The notes under the pieces: model-generated | The model's database searches: none | Seen by the model: only the letters and a program-made list of their open reading frames with translations | Told to the model about the DNA's origin: nothing | From: a virus | Reading direction: 5' to 3' (one strand) | IMG/VR virus record: IMGVR_UViG_3300043172_000063 | Location: 1-24,798 of that record | DNA: 24,798 bases | Position numbers and translations under genes: made by a program | Shown: positions 3,011 through 9,060 of the stretch, piece after piece | Position numbering within the stretch: the stretch's first letter is position 1 | Layout of the letters: every line of letters begins with the position of its first letter

Positions 3011-3892
3011 ATGTTTAACGATCTGAAATTGTATCTGTGTCTCGGTCAAGTTTCCTGTTTTGATGGCGATGGCGGCGACGAAGCTGCGGCTGCGGCGGCA
3101 GCGGCGGCAACGGCGGCTGCGGCGGCAACAGCGGCGGAAGCCAAGGTGGTAGCGGATGCGGCGGCAAAAGCTGCGGCAGTCGGTGACCCCAAGACTTTCA
3201 CCCAACCCGATGTAAATCGCATCGTCGAGGAACGATTGGCCCGAGAGCGGAAACAGAATGAGACGAAGTATCGGGAGTTGGAAACCAGCTACTCGACACT
3301 TCTCGAAAGCCAGGGTCTCTCGGAAGAAGAGCGCGGCAAGATGGAAGAGAGTCTTGCTGACGTTCAAAAGAAGCTCCGAACGAAGGAACAGGACGCCGAG
3401 TTCCAACTGAAGAAGGTGAAGGAATCACATGAGACCGAGTTGACGGAAGCCAAGAGGGCAGCCGTAGTGTGGGAGGATCGCTTCCATACTTCGAGCATCG
3501 ACCGAGCGTTGCAGGATGCAGCAGTGGCCAACGAGGCTTACAGCAACGATCAGATCGTTAGGCTCCTACGCCCAATGACAAAATTGAAGCCTAAGCTCGA
3601 TGAAGCGGGGAAAGAGACCAATGACTTTGAGACGGTCATCGATTTCCCCGACGTTGATGACAAAGGCTTGGCAGTCATCACGCAAAGAACCCCTGTGGAT
3701 ACCGTGAAGCGAATGAAAGAGATGGCTGATTATGCCAATCTCTTCAAGAGCAACGTGGTGTCTGGGGTTGGTGCCAACAGTGTTACCGGTGGCCACACAC
3801 CGGGTTCCAATGGTCAAATCGACGTTCGGACTTTGACGCCCGAACAGTACGCCAAAATCCGAAAAGAGAACCCCGCGCTTCTCGGACTGTAA
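3011..3892 (+). CDS. Capsid scaffolding protein
   Basis: 293 residues, ribosome site GGAAGGA (2999-3005). Order: an N-terminal motif KLYLC...V.CF (residues 6-17), an Asp/Gly-rich turn, an Ala-rich tract (about 25-60), a typical phage scaffold segment FTQPDVNRIVEERLARERKQ (63-82), a long charged coiled coil to about residue 145, a helical middle (RALQDAAVANEAYSNDQIVR), and a C-terminal LTPEQYAKIRKENP motif of the kind that contacts coat protein. High Glu/Lys/Ala content, no catalytic residues and position directly before the coat gene all fit a scaffold that directs procapsid assembly and is later removed. No maturation protease is seen in the window. Confidence 0.85.
   Translation: MFNDLKLYLCLGQVSCFDGDGGDEAAAAAAAAATAAAAATAAEAKVVADAAAKAAAVGDPKTFTQPDVNRIVEERLARERKQNETKYRELETSYSTLLESQGLSEEERGKMEESLADVQKKLRTKEQDAEFQLKKVKESHETELTEAKRAAVVWEDRFHTSSIDRALQDAAVANEAYSNDQIVRLLRPMTKLKPKLDEAGKETNDFETVIDFPDVDDKGLAVITQRTPVDTVKRMKEMADYANLFKSNVVSGVGANSVTGGHTPGSNGQIDVRTLTPEQYAKIRKENPALLGL
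3083..3190 (+). repeat. GCN-rich low-complexity tract (poly-alanine)
   Basis: A run of GCG/GCA/GCT codons with a few ACG/ACA interruptions encodes nine consecutive Ala residues and then mixed Ala/Thr/Glu blocks. It is inside the scaffold gene, just after the N-terminal motif. Such trinucleotide tracts are prone to length change by slippage. Confidence 0.8.
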
Positions 3893-3905
3893 TGACCACT
3901 TACGG

Positions 3906-3925
3906 GGGTTGATGTATTTCAATCC
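3906..3925 (+). promoter_or_regulatory. Leader hairpin upstream of the capsid gene
   Basis: GGGTTGA (3906-3912) pairs with TCAATCC (3919-3925), including one G-T pair, around the loop TGTATT. It sits in the 60-base leader of the major capsid gene, 16 bases before its GGAG ribosome site (3942-3945). No T-run follows, so it is unlikely to terminate transcription. A role in mRNA stability or translation is possible but unproven. Confidence 0.4.
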
Positions 3926-3952
3926 AACTATTCCCTGTCTTGGAGAAACAAG

Positions 3953-5365
3953 ATGAAACTGTACCTGTGTAACTCGGAAGTCGTTTGTTTCGCGAACGAC
4001 AACGATGCCCTCATCCCCGAGAAGTGGGCCTTGGAGGGCCTGATGCAACTCGAAGAGCAGATGGTTGTGGCCAACTTGGTCCACCGCGACTTCGAGAATG
4101 AAATCGCCAACTTCGGTGATACCGTCAACGCCCATCGCCCTGGTGAGTTCAAGATTCGCCGGAAGAACGACACCACGTCCACCTTGGACAAGCAGGACGC
4201 CGTCGCGTCCAACGTGCCTGTCAAGCTGAACCAGTGGTTCTACAACTCGTTCATCATCAAGGATGGTGAGCAGTCCAAGTCCTTCAAGGACTTGCTCGCG
4301 ATGTATCTGGTGCCGTCGATGCGTACGATTGCCCGCTCGATTGACCGGGCCCTCATCGGTCACGTCCACAAGTTCGCGTCCTTCGGCACCCCCGCCGGTC
4401 GATGCGGTCGCTTGCAGAACCTCGATTCGGCGACGAGCCACGAAGTCGTGCTCGAAGCCCGCGAGATTCTCAACCAGAACAACGCTCCGCTGGACGAGAA
4501 CCGCAGCTTGCTCCTCTCTTCGATGAGCGAGACGGCTCTGCTCAAAAACACCATGTTTTTGAAAGCCATGGAGCGTGGCGATGGTGGCAACGCCCTGACG
4601 AATGCCAACTTGGGTCGAATCCTTGGCTTCAACACGTTCCTTGCCCAGAACGTCCCGTACTGTAACCTCCTGAACGCCGACGTGGTTGTGGGTACGGTCA
4701 CGGCTGCGGAAGTTGTGGGTGAAGCGGGTGCTCTGGATTGCACCTTGGGTGCGTCGGTCGTTGGCGAGTTCTGCAATGTTGCAGGCAACGATCAACCCAC
4801 TTGGATCACCGCTCTTACGGCCGCCACGACCGACGTGACGCTCAATGAGCCCCTGAAGTACGCGACGGGTGCTGGTGCGGTTCTGACCCTCTACGCGGCT
4901 GCCAATGTGGAAGCCACCTATGCGGTTGCCTACGACCAACAGATCGAGGTGTCCCACACCTCGGGCAAGGCTCCGCAGATCGGTCAGTTGATGGCTTTCG
5001 GTACGGGTGGTTCGCGCCATGTGTACACCATCATCGAGGTGGACGTGATTTCCGCGACCAACACCTATGTGATGTTGGATCGTCCGCTGGACTACTCCGT
5101 CGCCCAGAACGACGCCGCATTCCCCGGCCCCGCTGGCTCGCTCAACATGGCTCTGCATCGCGAGTGTGTGGCTCTGGTCACCCGCCCGGTTGCGGTCCCG
5201 CCGAACGCAATGGGCGTTCTGAGTGGCGCGGGTGCGTACAACGGCATCGGCATGCGTGTGTCGATGCAGTACGACATCAACGCTGGTGGTACGGTCGTGA
5301 ACTGCGACATCCTCGCCGGTATCAAGGAGCTTGACACCAATTTGGCGGTCGCGCTCCTCGGCTAA
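3953..5365 (+). CDS. Major capsid protein (P22 coat-like, HK97 fold)
   Basis: 470 residues. The N-terminus carries KLYLC...V.CF, shared with the scaffold. Then comes IPEKWALEGLMQLEEQMVVA and a segment typical of P22-type coat proteins: a HRDFENEIANFGDTV stretch, PGEFKIRRK, WFYNSFIIKDGEQS, and a helix LVPSMRTIARSIDRALIGHV. A Gly/Thr/Ala-rich middle (about residues 240-330) may be an inserted surface domain, as the P22 coat has; a beta-rich C-terminal half ends in DTNLAVALLG. Length is close to that of P22 gp5 (about 430). Codons are strongly C-ending compared with neighbours, fitting very high expression. Position after the scaffold and the strong terminator behind it agree. The P22 affinity is from pattern only. 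Confidence 0.85.
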   Translation: MKLYLCNSEVVCFANDNDALIPEKWALEGLMQLEEQMVVANLVHRDFENEIANFGDTVNAHRPGEFKIRRKNDTTSTLDKQDAVASNVPVKLNQWFYNSFIIKDGEQSKSFKDLLAMYLVPSMRTIARSIDRALIGHVHKFASFGTPAGRCGRLQNLDSATSHEVVLEAREILNQNNAPLDENRSLLLSSMSETALLKNTMFLKAMERGDGGNALTNANLGRILGFNTFLAQNVPYCNLLNADVVVGTVTAAEVVGEAGALDCTLGASVVGEFCNVAGNDQPTWITALTAATTDVTLNEPLKYATGAGAVLTLYAAANVEATYAVAYDQQIEVSHTSGKAPQIGQLMAFGTGGSRHVYTIIEVDVISATNTYVMLDRPLDYSVAQNDAAFPGPAGSLNMALHRECVALVTRPVAVPPNAMGVLSGAGAYNGIGMRVSMQYDINAGGTVVNCDILAGIKELDTNLAVALLG

Positions 5366-5451: not shown

Positions 5452-5724
5452 ATGGAGTTTTTTGGATTTGTTGATGCACTTGGTGACTTGAATTGGCTTT
5501 TTCAAACTTTTGGACCACTTCTTGTTGCAGTTGTGTTCTTCATTTGGCGAGACGCTCGCCGCGAAGATCGACTGACTGCACGGATCAAACAACTGGAAGA
5601 CGAACAGCGAGACATTATCCTGCCCCTTGTCAAGGAATCGACGGCAGTCATTGTTCGGAACACTACCGTAATGGAACAGAGTTTCAAACTGATGGAACGA
5701 CTCGAACGTGCTCTCAACAGATAG
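5452..5724 (+). CDS. Small membrane protein, holin-like (BhlA/UviB-type architecture)
   Basis: 90 residues with one hydrophobic segment (about residues 15-32, LFQTFGPLLVAVVFFIW) followed at once by a charged, positively flanked helix (RDARREDRLTARIKQLEDEQ) and a predicted amphipathic tail. One N-terminal membrane helix plus a charged coiled coil is the architecture of BhlA/UviB-type putative holins. An alternative is a membrane-anchored virion or superinfection protein. The ribosome site AAGGGAGAGAG (5438-5448) is strong. It is unusual to find a lysis-type gene between coat and head-closure genes, and no endolysin is visible in the window, so the lysis role is tentative. Confidence 0.55.
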   Translation: MEFFGFVDALGDLNWLFQTFGPLLVAVVFFIWRDARREDRLTARIKQLEDEQRDIILPLVKESTAVIVRNTTVMEQSFKLMERLERALNR

Positions 5725-5734
5725 CAGGTGAGTT

Positions 5735-6229
5735 ATGGCTGGGTACAATGCACAATTGATCCGCATGGTCAACCAGAATCTTTACTCGCTCAAACGGCAG
5801 TATGGTGGGCGAGTGGTTCTTTGCTCTTTGATTGATGCCGAGACGGATTACATAACTGGCATCAAATCGGTGGAATACCAAATTTGCCATATCCGTCGAG
5901 CGGTCATTTTACCTTCACGAATGATGCGAGATGTAGTTGCCAGTGTGGCTCGTATCTCATCGAATAAGCAACTGGCCTACGGTGGCGAATTCAATGTAGG
6001 TGATCGTGGATTTATAATCCATGGGAAAGATGTACCCACTGGCTGGGAAATACGAAAGGACGATTGGATTTCCTATCGAGGTGAACGCTACAGCATCAAG
6101 ACAGTTCTCAATGTATGTGGCAACACCGGATGGATGATTTCCGCTCGTAAACATCCTGGTATGCCTCTTACGTTTCATGTTCAGGCTCACAATGCAATCA
6201 GTTTGAATGACGAGGCCCAACATGAATGA
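5735..6229 (+). CDS. Putative head-closure/neck protein, copy 1
   Basis: 164 residues. It is clearly paralogous to the next gene: both begin with an 'NLYSLKRQYG' block, continue with a Leu/Ile-Asp-x-Glu-Thr-Asp-Tyr-x-Thr-Gly segment, a '(V/I)RRA(V/I)(I/M)LP' strand, a 'SNK/ANK' turn, then a beta-rich half ending at a Gly-Trp-(M/I)-Ile strand. Position right after the coat and before the tail-terminator and tail-tube genes is where head-closure (stopper) proteins are encoded. The ribosome site is weak (CAGGTGAG, 5725-5732). Function inferred from position; I do not recognise a named family with certainty. Confidence 0.55.
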   Translation: MAGYNAQLIRMVNQNLYSLKRQYGGRVVLCSLIDAETDYITGIKSVEYQICHIRRAVILPSRMMRDVVASVARISSNKQLAYGGEFNVGDRGFIIHGKDVPTGWEIRKDDWISYRGERYSIKTVLNVCGNTGWMISARKHPGMPLTFHVQAHNAISLNDEAQHE

Positions 6230-6665
6230 TCGTTCACACTCTAACTTCGTCCGGCGTAATCTCTATTCTTTGAAACGTCAATATGGGGTCCAGGTTGCTG
6301 TCCACAAAATCCTGGATACTGAGACGGATTATGCAACAGGTGAGAAGGAAGTTACGAAGGAAATTCATTCAGTCCGCCGAGCAATCATGCTCCCCGTGGA
6401 AGCTGAACGAGTAGTGGAACAAGGCATCGCGCATTTATCGGCGAACAAAATGTTCGTCTCACAAGCCGGTTTCGATCAGGAGAAAGCACTCTTTATTTTC
6501 GATGCCCGCGATTTGCCCAGGGGCTTTCAATTCGACTTGAATGATTTCGTTGTTGTTGATGGCGAATACCACTGCATCACTGAAGTGGATGAGTACGAAT
6601 ATGATTCAGGCTGGATCATCAAGACTCATCTTGCCAAAGGTGCTGACCTTGAGGAGACACCATAA
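6222..6665 (+). CDS. Putative head-closure/neck protein, copy 2 (paralogue of the preceding gene)
   Basis: 147 residues from the ATG at 6222, which has a purine-rich GACGAGG before it; an ATG at 6207 has none. It overlaps the previous gene by 8 bases. Shared with copy 1: NLYSLKRQYG, the ETDYATGEK block, RRAIMLP, the SANK turn, the 'RDLPRGF' versus 'KDVPTGW' turn, and the Gly-Trp-Ile-Ile strand near the C-terminus. The tandem pair most likely arose by duplication, and the two proteins may form a hetero-ring or stacked rings in the neck. Function inferred from position. Confidence 0.55.
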   Translation: MNDRSHSNFVRRNLYSLKRQYGVQVAVHKILDTETDYATGEKEVTKEIHSVRRAIMLPVEAERVVEQGIAHLSANKMFVSQAGFDQEKALFIFDARDLPRGFQFDLNDFVVVDGEYHCITEVDEYEYDSGWIIKTHLAKGADLEETP

Positions 6666-7171
6666 TGGCTGATATCAATCCGAATTGGGCCAGATGGATT
6701 AACGCCTCCCTCGCGGTGTACTTCAAAGCGATTACCGATGCACTCAATCCTGCACTCCCCCTTATTGTCGAGGGGATTGATGAGCGGGAATCTGAAAAGA
6801 TGGAGGTTGACCACGCAGAATTGCGAATCAATGGTCCCTTCATTCGTCAACCGAGTAACGGCGATTTTGTTCTCGATGTGGACACCAATATCCTCTTGAC
6901 CGACCTCATGGAAGGCGAGGGTGAAAACACGTACAACCTTTCGACTTGGGCCGGGTACTTCCAGCAAGCTGCTGAGAAGTCAATACCTGTGTATCGCTAC
7001 GGCCCCGATACCGGAGGAGTTGATGACGGCTCCTGGGTTGGTTGCTTGTCTGTGAGGACTCGTAAAATGGGTCCTGACCTCTATCATTTTGGCCAAGTCA
7101 GTACGAAAGATCGTGTCCGCCAAGCCGCCGTGGATACGAAACATCGAATGTACTTGACCGTGTCGGAGTAG
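6665..7171 (+). CDS. Putative tail terminator/completion protein
   Basis: 168 residues, starting in a TAATG overlap with the previous stop and with GAGGAG at 6651-6656. The protein has an N-terminal helix (WARWINASLAVYFKAITDAL), then a beta core with LRINGPFIRQPSNGDFVLDVDTNI, and a second strand set around GCLSVRTRKMGPDLYHFGQV. An N-terminal helix packed on a beta sheet with a 'D.N.L' strand is the shape of tail-terminator proteins. Its place between closure-type genes and the tail-tube genes fits. The family is not recognised with confidence. Confidence 0.5.
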   Translation: MADINPNWARWINASLAVYFKAITDALNPALPLIVEGIDERESEKMEVDHAELRINGPFIRQPSNGDFVLDVDTNILLTDLMEGEGENTYNLSTWAGYFQQAAEKSIPVYRYGPDTGGVDDGSWVGCLSVRTRKMGPDLYHFGQVSTKDRVRQAAVDTKHRMYLTVSE

Positions 7172-7200
7172 GCAACTGCCTCTCCCGAACGCACGCTACT

Positions 7201-7240
7201 TGGGTCGCACCCACGGAGCATAATCAATTCCTTGCAAGGA
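7201..7240 (+). promoter_or_regulatory. Leader hairpin and palindrome over the ribosome site of tail-tube gene 1
   Basis: TGGGT-CGC-ACCCA (7201-7213) is a small perfect hairpin. TCCTTGCAAGGA (7229-7240) is a perfect 12-base palindrome whose right arm contains the AAGG of the AAGGAG ribosome site, 9 bases before the ATG at 7251. Folding of the palindrome as TCCT-TGCA-AGGA would partly mask the ribosome site, so translation could be tuned. That role is inference. Confidence 0.45.
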
Positions 7241-7250
7241 GAATGCCACC

Positions 7251-8003
7251 ATGGCAAGAATCGAACTGAAACATTGTGTCGTCCGAATGAAGGATGGCCT
7301 CGCGGGAGCCGGTGCAATCAATGAGCCGACCACCGCCCCGGTTGAAACTGACACGACTTTCGACATCGACACGGTCGTCTTGAACACGACCGACACAGAC
7401 TTGGTTCCGGTTGGGGCACGCTTCACCGTCGATGGTGAAACGGACGCCGCTCAGGTCCACGTTGTGACCGAGCGGACGCCGACCGACTCGGGTCCGACTA
7501 CCAATATCGTCTTTACGCCTGCCCTTGGTGCTGGCACCTATGCTGATGGTGGCGTGTTGGCGTTCGTCAATCAGCAGATCGACATCAAGATTGGTGACGG
7601 GAATATCACCTACACCGAGAACACCAACTACGATTACGATCTTGATCGTGGTGTTCTTGACACGGTGCGGGAAGGTGACCAAGCCCCGATGGATGTGAAT
7701 CTCGACTTCGTCTACGAGTACATTACGACGGGGACGGGCGAAACCATCACGCCGATGGACGCCGTCAAGCAGAAGGGTGGTGCATCCGAATGGGTCAATG
7801 CTGCTGCTGATCCCTGTGAACCTTACGCTGTGGATATCGAAGTCGTGTACACGCCGCCCTGCGGTGGTGCCGAGATCGAGACCACGTTGTTCCCCGATTT
7901 CCGTCCGGATTCCAAGGAAGTGGACTTGGGTGAAGCCAATGTCTCTGTGTCCGGCCGTTGCAACGCACTCGAACCGACTGTGACCCGTGCGGCTCAGTCC
8001 TAA
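7251..8003 (+). CDS. Major tail-tube protein, copy 1
   Basis: 250 residues. It starts MARIELKHCVVRMKDG, has a small beta domain with VPVGARFTVDGE ... IVFTPALGAG (about residues 50-100), and then the conserved tube part: DIKIGDGNITYTENTNYDYD, LDRGVLDTVREGDQAPMDV, FVYEYITTGTGETITPMDA, a CEPYAVDIEVVYTPPCGG segment and a C-terminal DSKEVDLGEANVSVSGRCNA. The order and text fit tail-tube proteins of long-tailed phages (an 'IGDG..TY.E' strand, 'REGD..PMDV.....YEY' and a long closing sheet). Ribosome site AAGGAG at 7236-7241. It is paralogous to the next gene and its C-terminal two thirds is nearly identical to it. C-ending codons suggest high expression. Confidence 0.75.
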   Translation: MARIELKHCVVRMKDGLAGAGAINEPTTAPVETDTTFDIDTVVLNTTDTDLVPVGARFTVDGETDAAQVHVVTERTPTDSGPTTNIVFTPALGAGTYADGGVLAFVNQQIDIKIGDGNITYTENTNYDYDLDRGVLDTVREGDQAPMDVNLDFVYEYITTGTGETITPMDAVKQKGGASEWVNAAADPCEPYAVDIEVVYTPPCGGAEIETTLFPDFRPDSKEVDLGEANVSVSGRCNALEPTVTRAAQS

Positions 8004-8028: not shown

Positions 8029-9060
8029 ATGGCACGTATTGAACTCAAACACTGCGTCATCCGTATGAAGGACGGCTTTGTGGGGAGTGCCGCTGTCAAT
8101 GACACGCCTGCCCAAGATGATGTCACCCTGGAAATCGACACGATTGCCGGGATTCCCAACGCCGACACAATTGTCCCTGTTGGGGCTCGCTTCACCGTCA
8201 TTGGTGATGCGGACACGACCTTCGCGATCACTGATGTCAACTCGAATTGCCAATACACGGTAACCGTGTCCGGTGCCTCGGGTGGTAACTTCACGTTGAG
8301 CTTCGACGGGGAGACGACTAACAACATCCTCTATGATGCAACAGCACAGGATGTGGAAGATGCATTGGTTGCAGACTGCGCCAACATCTCAACTGGTGAC
8401 GTGGTTGTCACTGGTTCGGCCGGTAGTCCCTGGCTTGTTGAATTCCAAGGTCAGTACACTGACACGGATGTAGCCGCACTCACGGCTGCCGACGTGGATT
8501 TGACTGGTACGGGTCCAACGGTTGGGTCCGTGCTCACAAATACTGGCGGCACCACTTGGGAGTTGACTTTCACTCCCGCGATTCAATCGGGTGAAGTTCC
8601 GATTGATGATGCCGTCATCACGTTCCTTGCTCAGCAGCTTGAAATCAAGATCGGCGATGGCAACGTTACCTACACCGAGAACACCAACTACGATTACGAC
8701 CTTGATCGTGGTGTTCTTGATACCGTGCGTGAAGGTGACCAAGCTCCGATGGATGTGAATCTCGACTTCGTCTACGAGTACATTACGACGGGGACGGGCG
8801 AAACCATCACGCCGATGGATGCCATCAAGCAAAAGGGTGGAGCCGCGAATTGGTACAATTCATCGGCCGATCCCTGTGAACCCTATGCCGTGGATATCGA
8901 GGTCGTGTACACGCCGCCTTGTGGTGGTGCCGAGATCGAGACCACGTTGTTCCCCGATTTCCGTGCGGACTCCAAGGAAGTTGATCTTGGAGAAGCCTCG
9001 ATATCGGTATCCGGCCGTTGCAACGCACTCGAACCGACTGTGACTCGTGCGGCCCAGTAA
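8029..9060 (+). CDS. Major tail-tube protein, copy 2, with an inserted beta domain
   Basis: 343 residues. It matches copy 1 at the N-terminus (MARIELKHCVIRMKDG) and from about residue 175 to the end, but carries an extra segment of about 93-100 residues at roughly residues 74-174. The insert (YTVTVSGASGGNFTLSFDGE, then an 'A.DVEDAL' helix-like turn, then GDVVVTGSAGSPWLVEFQGQ and DVAALTAADVDLTGTG) has the pattern of an immunoglobulin-like repeat domain common in phage and surface proteins. It sits inside a loop of the small VPVGARFTV beta domain, so one domain is nested in another. Ribosome site GGAGG at 8013-8017. A tube subunit with an outward domain, made beside a plain one, is the likely role. 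A strong terminator follows. Confidence 0.75.
   Translation: MARIELKHCVIRMKDGFVGSAAVNDTPAQDDVTLEIDTIAGIPNADTIVPVGARFTVIGDADTTFAITDVNSNCQYTVTVSGASGGNFTLSFDGETTNNILYDATAQDVEDALVADCANISTGDVVVTGSAGSPWLVEFQGQYTDTDVAALTAADVDLTGTGPTVGSVLTNTGGTTWELTFTPAIQSGEVPIDDAVITFLAQQLEIKIGDGNVTYTENTNYDYDLDRGVLDTVREGDQAPMDVNLDFVYEYITTGTGETITPMDAIKQKGGAANWYNSSADPCEPYAVDIEVVYTPPCGGAEIETTLFPDFRADSKEVDLGEASISVSGRCNALEPTVTRAAQ
8245..8550 (+). other. Inserted domain segment within tail-tube copy 2
   Basis: These bases have no counterpart in tail-tube copy 1. They encode a complete beta-type domain (Gly/Thr/Asp rich, ending near VGSVLTNTGG) flanked on both sides by sequence that aligns to the other copy. Borders are approximate because the flanking loop itself has diverged. 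Confidence 0.7.

Follow-up and report, generated by a model that had tools for sequence, protein, structure and literature searches.

The window analysed here, a 24,798-base IMG/VR-type virus record, encodes a head scaffolding protein, a major capsid protein (MCP, or coat) and, further downstream, two putative tail-tube proteins (Table 1). Both sequence (PF11651, 9.8e-25) and fold place the coat in the P22 type, with an AF2 model (84 sequences, pLDDT 83.6) matching the Sf6, CUS-3 and P22 coats in Foldseek. As in P22 and Sf6, a separate scaffold gene lies upstream of the coat gene. Residues 1-17 of the coat model are disordered, and the scaffold model has a pLDDT near 55 across the N-terminal segment that is treated below as a leader. 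Directly 3' of the coat gene lies a gene for a small conserved protein (5452-5724) that has a single hydrophobic segment and a tail resembling a coiled coil, and which is kept in most relatives. The next genes (5735-6229 and 6207-6665) are overlapping neighbours that look like diverged duplicates, with NLYSLKRQYG... near each N-terminus.

Table 1. Structural genes of the window and the leader segments delimited within them.
Feature	Position	Strand	Basis
Scaffolding protein gene, 293 aa	3011..3892	+	PHROG 206 head scaffolding protein, 3.4e-11; MCP gene directly downstream in relatives
Scaffold leader MFNDLKLYLCLGQVSCF, 17 aa, then D18	3011..3061	+	Boundary placed where within-genome similarity ends
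Scaffold 11-residue module LYLCLGQVSCF (P11-P1)	3029..3061	+	Per-column concerted similarity, P11 to P1 only
MCP gene, P22 type, 470 aa	3953..5365	+	Pfam PF11651 (P22_CoatProtein), 9.8e-25; PHROG 283; Foldseek Sf6, CUS-3 and P22 coats, E about 1e-13
Coat leader MKLYLCNSEVVCF, 13 aa, then A14	3953..3991	+	AF2 pLDDT <50 for residues 1-17, residue 7 excepted
Coat 11-residue module LYLCNSEVVCF (P11-P1)	3959..3991	+	Per-column concerted similarity
Putative tail-tube protein, copy 1, M-ARIEL..., untagged in the window	7251..8003	+	Function suggested by gene order and by the major-tail-protein hits of copy 2
Putative tail-tube protein, copy 2, with inserted domain, untagged in the window	8029..9060	+	PHROG 10909 major tail protein, 6.1e-9

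The translated scaffold and coat reading frames start with MFNDLKLYLCLGQVSCFDGDG... and MKLYLCNSEVVCFANDND..., respectively, and a Shine-Dalgarno-like GGAAGG/GGAG precedes both starts. Their N-termini align without gaps (KLYLCLGQVSCF versus KLYLCNSEVVCF) and have the pattern KLYLC-x5-CF in common. Within the first 40 residues, the top ungapped 12-mer between the two proteins scored BLOSUM 45, a value reached by none of 5000 shuffles (shuffle maximum 34). The common motif described in the original prediction is therefore real, and the reading frames are as it gave them. Over the whole motif, 23 of 36 bases are identical between the two genes; among the first 18 bases, a recount gave 14 matches rather than the 15 initially reported.

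Relatives were collected by an MCP search of viral contigs, which yielded 50 loci and then 80 + 80 more with MCP and scaffold alignments. Scanning genomes added three hits from two Planctomycetota MAGs (two of them on contigs 290 and 444 kb long), as well as one hit each in an Anaerolinea MAG and a Phycisphaeraceae MAG. On the basis of MAG binning, the hosts of at least some members of this large group of uncultured bacterial viruses are probably Planctomycetota. Related viral contigs and Planctomycetota prophages supplied 121 distinct scaffold/MCP pairs, nearly all with the peptide on both proteins: 117 pairs were scorable, with 106 carrying it on both proteins, seven on one and four on neither. 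In five of the seven one-protein pairs, the MCP gene is interrupted behind the peptide. A tag exon was located upstream of the split MCP in L034, L176, L273 and L290, and likewise in L257 and L294; none was recovered in L041, and L044 is similarly without a resolved exon. The other two one-protein pairs are a truncated contig (L001) and a diverged scaffold peptide (L213), and those scored as lacking the peptide comprise a distant relative (L147) and three loci with shortened leaders (L259, L263 and L280). The outcome that the original prediction named as refuting, related phages with the motif in only one of the two proteins, was checked in this way and not borne out.

The MCP genes of L034 (4281-5030), L176, L257, L273, L290 and L294 feature an intron-like insert directly after the exon that encodes the leader, at ...IPEL^W or close to it, and the insert of L034 bears an HNH-type ORF. 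In 2.5 Mb of large phage contigs, the leader was detected only on scaffold, coat and tail-tube proteins and on one second scaffold-like gene, in L107. The product of this gene (PHROG 206) has its own leader, LYLSPAVLISY, and the gene lies beside a large serine recombinase (L107:4568-5404 and 5506-7800 for the two together), a few kb before the normal scaffold/coat pair; it is possibly part of a satellite or a second prophage module. When host proteins with the same leader were sought in four MAGs with a strict pattern, only prophage genes and chance or non-N-terminal matches were returned.

The consensus module consists of 11 residues, L-Y-L-S-x-[AP]-x-[VL]-[AS]-C-[FY] (P11 to P1), and ends exactly after the aromatic residue. 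In a per-column test on 53 clusters (<80% identity), similarity between the scaffold and coat of the same genome was significant in all columns from P11 to P1 (z 3.5-7.0) and was gone on either side (P12, z -1.6; P1', 1.7; P2', 0.7). The P1' residue varies, with A, E or D in the coat and D or E in the scaffold. In contrast to the tagged group, the P22-type MCPs of the Streptomyces and Gordonia phages that were checked have no leader and start (M/V)-AN.FL, and the untagged Phycisphaeraceae MCP starts M-ANDLSAY, versus CF-ANDNDAFIPE at the tagged boundary. Since untagged coats read M-AN and untagged tail tubes M-ARIEL, the leader is prefixed at residue 2 of the untagged relatives. No leader is known to take part in P22 coat assembly. 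A lipoprotein signal, for which [AS]C would be the lipobox-like element, was dropped because the Cys can be lost and the core takes charged residues (MYQSRPWESCF).

If the two leaders were merely diverged paralogues, a coat leader should resemble every scaffold leader equally. Instead, scaffold and coat leaders from the same genome had a similarity of BLOSUM 36.0, whereas permuting the pairings gave 24.3 (z = 17.3, n = 93). With one genome per MCP cluster, z was 15.8 (n = 78, <90% identity) and 8.7 (n = 25, <70%), and stricter thinning gave 7.4 (n = 21, <65% MCP identity) and 5.8 (n = 12, <60%), residual shared ancestry lying outside the model in each case. In these pairing tests, 0 of 100000 permutations reached the observed value. 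Co-variation of orthologous scaffold/coat pairs, initially proposed as a check, is thus borne out, as the leaders drift in parallel genome by genome. The Cys is lost jointly in L230 (FYLSQAMVALY / LYLSTIEFGLY) and L237 (LYLCQAEVALF / LYLTTAWLGLY), and L210 features a C to S change in both leaders. LYSNPVLACY is identical on scaffold and coat in L254, the leaders of L038 are KYHAQVRYACY / RYWAGVRFACY, and in L259, L263 and L280 both leaders have been shortened together. At identical leader residues, codon identity was 0.397, compared with 0.465 expected from codon usage. Leader codons are therefore no more alike than codon usage predicts, which indicates selection on the peptide and not on the DNA, and DNA-level gene conversion is ruled out as the source of the likeness between scaffold and coat.

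The leader also occurs on homologues of the first tail-tube copy in L040 and in L143/L195. In the window and nearly all other genomes this protein starts M-ARIEL, a few with alternative start codons. The putative tail tube of L040 starts with MNKLYLSKSVVGCY immediately followed by ARIEL (...GCY-ARIEL), and those of L143/L195 start MN(P/L)LYLAPAMLICF-ARIEL. In each graft the leader is of the type that the virus has on its other tagged proteins. In L143, 21 bases are identical between the leader DNA of the coat and that of the tail tube, a sign of recent transfer, and the closest relative of L040 (L042) has an untagged MARIEL exon, so the L040 graft is derived. The two tail-tube genes of the window are tandem duplicates (MARIELKHC...), and the inserted domain of the second resembles other major tail/sheath proteins. 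An intron-like insert follows MARIEL directly in the tail-tube gene of G036 (L103:5400-6660, minus strand), with a GIY-YIG-like ORF just upstream of the gene. In five loci the tail-tube ORF apparently has an ATC start after a strong AAGGAGG ribosome-binding site (L156 ~9633, L157 ~9527, L160 ~10557, L180 ~9284 and L240 ~5892); other copies have TTG.

The statement in the original prediction that no described counterpart is known does not hold, as the coat and scaffold of Staphylococcus aureus phage 80alpha have a common leader that is cleaved by Prp (PMC5744158, PMC9405229). Host Prp, which cleaves between F and A, cuts the 80alpha scaffold (gp46) at MEENKLKFNLQFF'ADQS and the coat (gp47) at MEQTQKLKLNLQHF'ASNN, and likewise cuts the leader of S. 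aureus L27, MLKLNLQFF'ASKK (PMC5744158, PMC9405229). In 80alpha the scaffold leader is essential, yet neither it nor the coat leader has to be cleaved; the major tail protein of another phage, phi13, bears the same motif (PMC5744158, PMC9405229). Prp sites are of the type MLxx(D/N)LQ(F/L)F'A(S/H)KK (PMC9405229), and the role of the shared 80alpha leader is still called unclear in the literature. A literature search for other shared scaffold/coat N-termini returned only the 80alpha work, and none for planctomycete phages.

The two systems have several features in common: a short common leader on scaffold and coat, an aromatic end before the mature protein, the motif on a tail protein too, and no phage prohead protease. 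80alpha loses 13 and 14 residues, and a cut at the module end would free 13 residues from the window coat and 17 from the scaffold. Peptidase_S78 and ClpP, the two prohead protease families searched for, were found in 0 and 1 of 25 large records, respectively, and were rejected for most records. This differs from HK97, lambda, T4 and phiKZ-like phages, whose prohead proteases may likewise process several structural proteins each. Unlike 80alpha, the sequence is unrelated (LYLSxPxxACF versus KLNLQFF) and does not match the Prp site pattern, P1' is not restricted to Ala, and the coat is of P22 type. Prp (PF04327) was absent from all four MAGs, from 149 genomes sampled from the host phylum (that of G061) and from 30 phage records, and L27, located in three of the MAGs, reads MAHKKGQGS... 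there and so has no N-terminal extension. With Prp missing, L27 unextended and the motif unrelated, the group is not a member of the 80alpha system, and the Prp/L27 route was rejected for these hosts. By analogy, the leader system appears to work like that of 80alpha, presumably including cleavage.

Scaffold and coat thus have a common module that evolves in concert at the amino-acid level, ends at a sharp boundary and is portable. Its portability, N-terminal position, sharp aromatic end and need to match among co-expressed proteins fit a leader that is read by one factor. We infer that such a common factor reads the leaders and, less firmly, that it cleaves them. The explanation towards which we lean is a portable leader on scaffold, coat and sometimes tail tube, all read by one factor that would most likely be an endopeptidase cutting after the aromatic residue. 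The 11-residue module would be prefixed to high-copy self-assembling proteins (scaffold, coat and, in two lineages, tail tube) and recognised on all of them by a single cytosolic factor. With a single reader for all of them, a change in one leader of a virus would have to be matched in the others. Cleavage after the aromatic residue would leave coats starting AN... and tail tubes starting ARIEL..., as in untagged relatives after Met removal. As 80alpha suggests by analogy, assembly may depend on the scaffold leader without depending on its cleavage. Against a cleaving factor, we count the varied P1' (A in Prp sites) and the outcome of the searches above for Prp, Peptidase_S78, ClpP and a leader-bearing host protein.

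Most of these signals would also be expected from a docking peptide that stays uncleaved. The N-termini, including the grafted tail tube, would then bind the same chaperone or assembly site and so join the partners, with the aromatic residue just ending the motif. This alternative, which we regard as possible though less probable, predicts the same concerted evolution and is consistent with the disordered leader in the coat model and with 80alpha, whose scaffold leader is essential although cutting it is not, and for which a common chaperone has been proposed. It offers no reason for the module to stop precisely at the point where untagged coats and tail tubes start. Mimicry of the coat is unlikely. 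A scaffold peptide imitating the coat N-arm could fill the same groove of the procapsid lattice until maturation. Scaffold and coat do co-assemble, and such a groove would be expected to evolve along with the two peptides; the two independent grafts, however, are on the tail tube, outside the procapsid. The AF2 coat monomer also has no docked N-terminus (pLDDT <50), a weak objection as a monomer has no lattice contacts.

The coat-to-tail-tube transfer in L143/L195 occurred at the DNA level and took part of the ribosome-binding site with it, as might be expected if a nucleic-acid signal or duplicated translation start region were maintained and the peptide were a by-product. The codon comparison, many synonymous differences and unrelated flanks make this very improbable as the reason why the motif persists. 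A metal-binding or disulphide site, suggested by C-x5-C in both window proteins, hardly merits belief given that the first Cys (P8) is mostly Ser in relatives (35 of 53 coats and 37 of 53 scaffolds) and that the second is lost from both proteins in L210, L230 and L237. Among the options initially raised, the data favour a leader or recognition module.

Returning to a leader read by one factor, comparison of five near-complete genomes brought out a phage-encoded core protein of 158-166 residues with invariant C12, H120 and D131. These residues are invariant in 19 members, and by motif the candidate resembles C39-like (papain-like Cys/His/Asp) peptidases; it had no sequence match in Pfam, PHROG, NCBIfam or PDB. 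All 18 near-complete genomes compared encode the protein (166 aa in G019), as do 20 of 30 records, among them prophage contigs from both Planctomycetota MAGs. Its distances correlate with leader distances at a partial r of 0.51 given the genome mean, ranking second of 39 core families (median 0.03). A 245-aa gene of no relation to it does equally well, however, and correlations are also seen for other early genes. In G053 and G054 the candidate is missing and the leaders are present without Cys; most of that early gene block is missing too. Collectively, these data weakly support the candidate peptidase as the leader reader. The proposal that this phage-encoded protein is a cysteine peptidase from a family not yet described, and that it reads, cuts and co-evolves with the leader which scaffold, coat and tail tube have in common, is speculative and, at present, rather doubtful.

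If it were true, phages of Planctomycetota would have evolved, independently, a second system that processes leaders for virion assembly. More than 100 natural leader pairs are now on hand for testing leader specificity, and looking for concerted N-termini offers a way to spot similar leaders in other phages. An unrelated leader with 80alpha-like architecture, in another phylum, which co-evolves on scaffold and coat and has twice been grafted onto the tail tube, argues that giving virion subunits a common N-terminal leader is a solution reached repeatedly, rather than something peculiar to Prp and L27.
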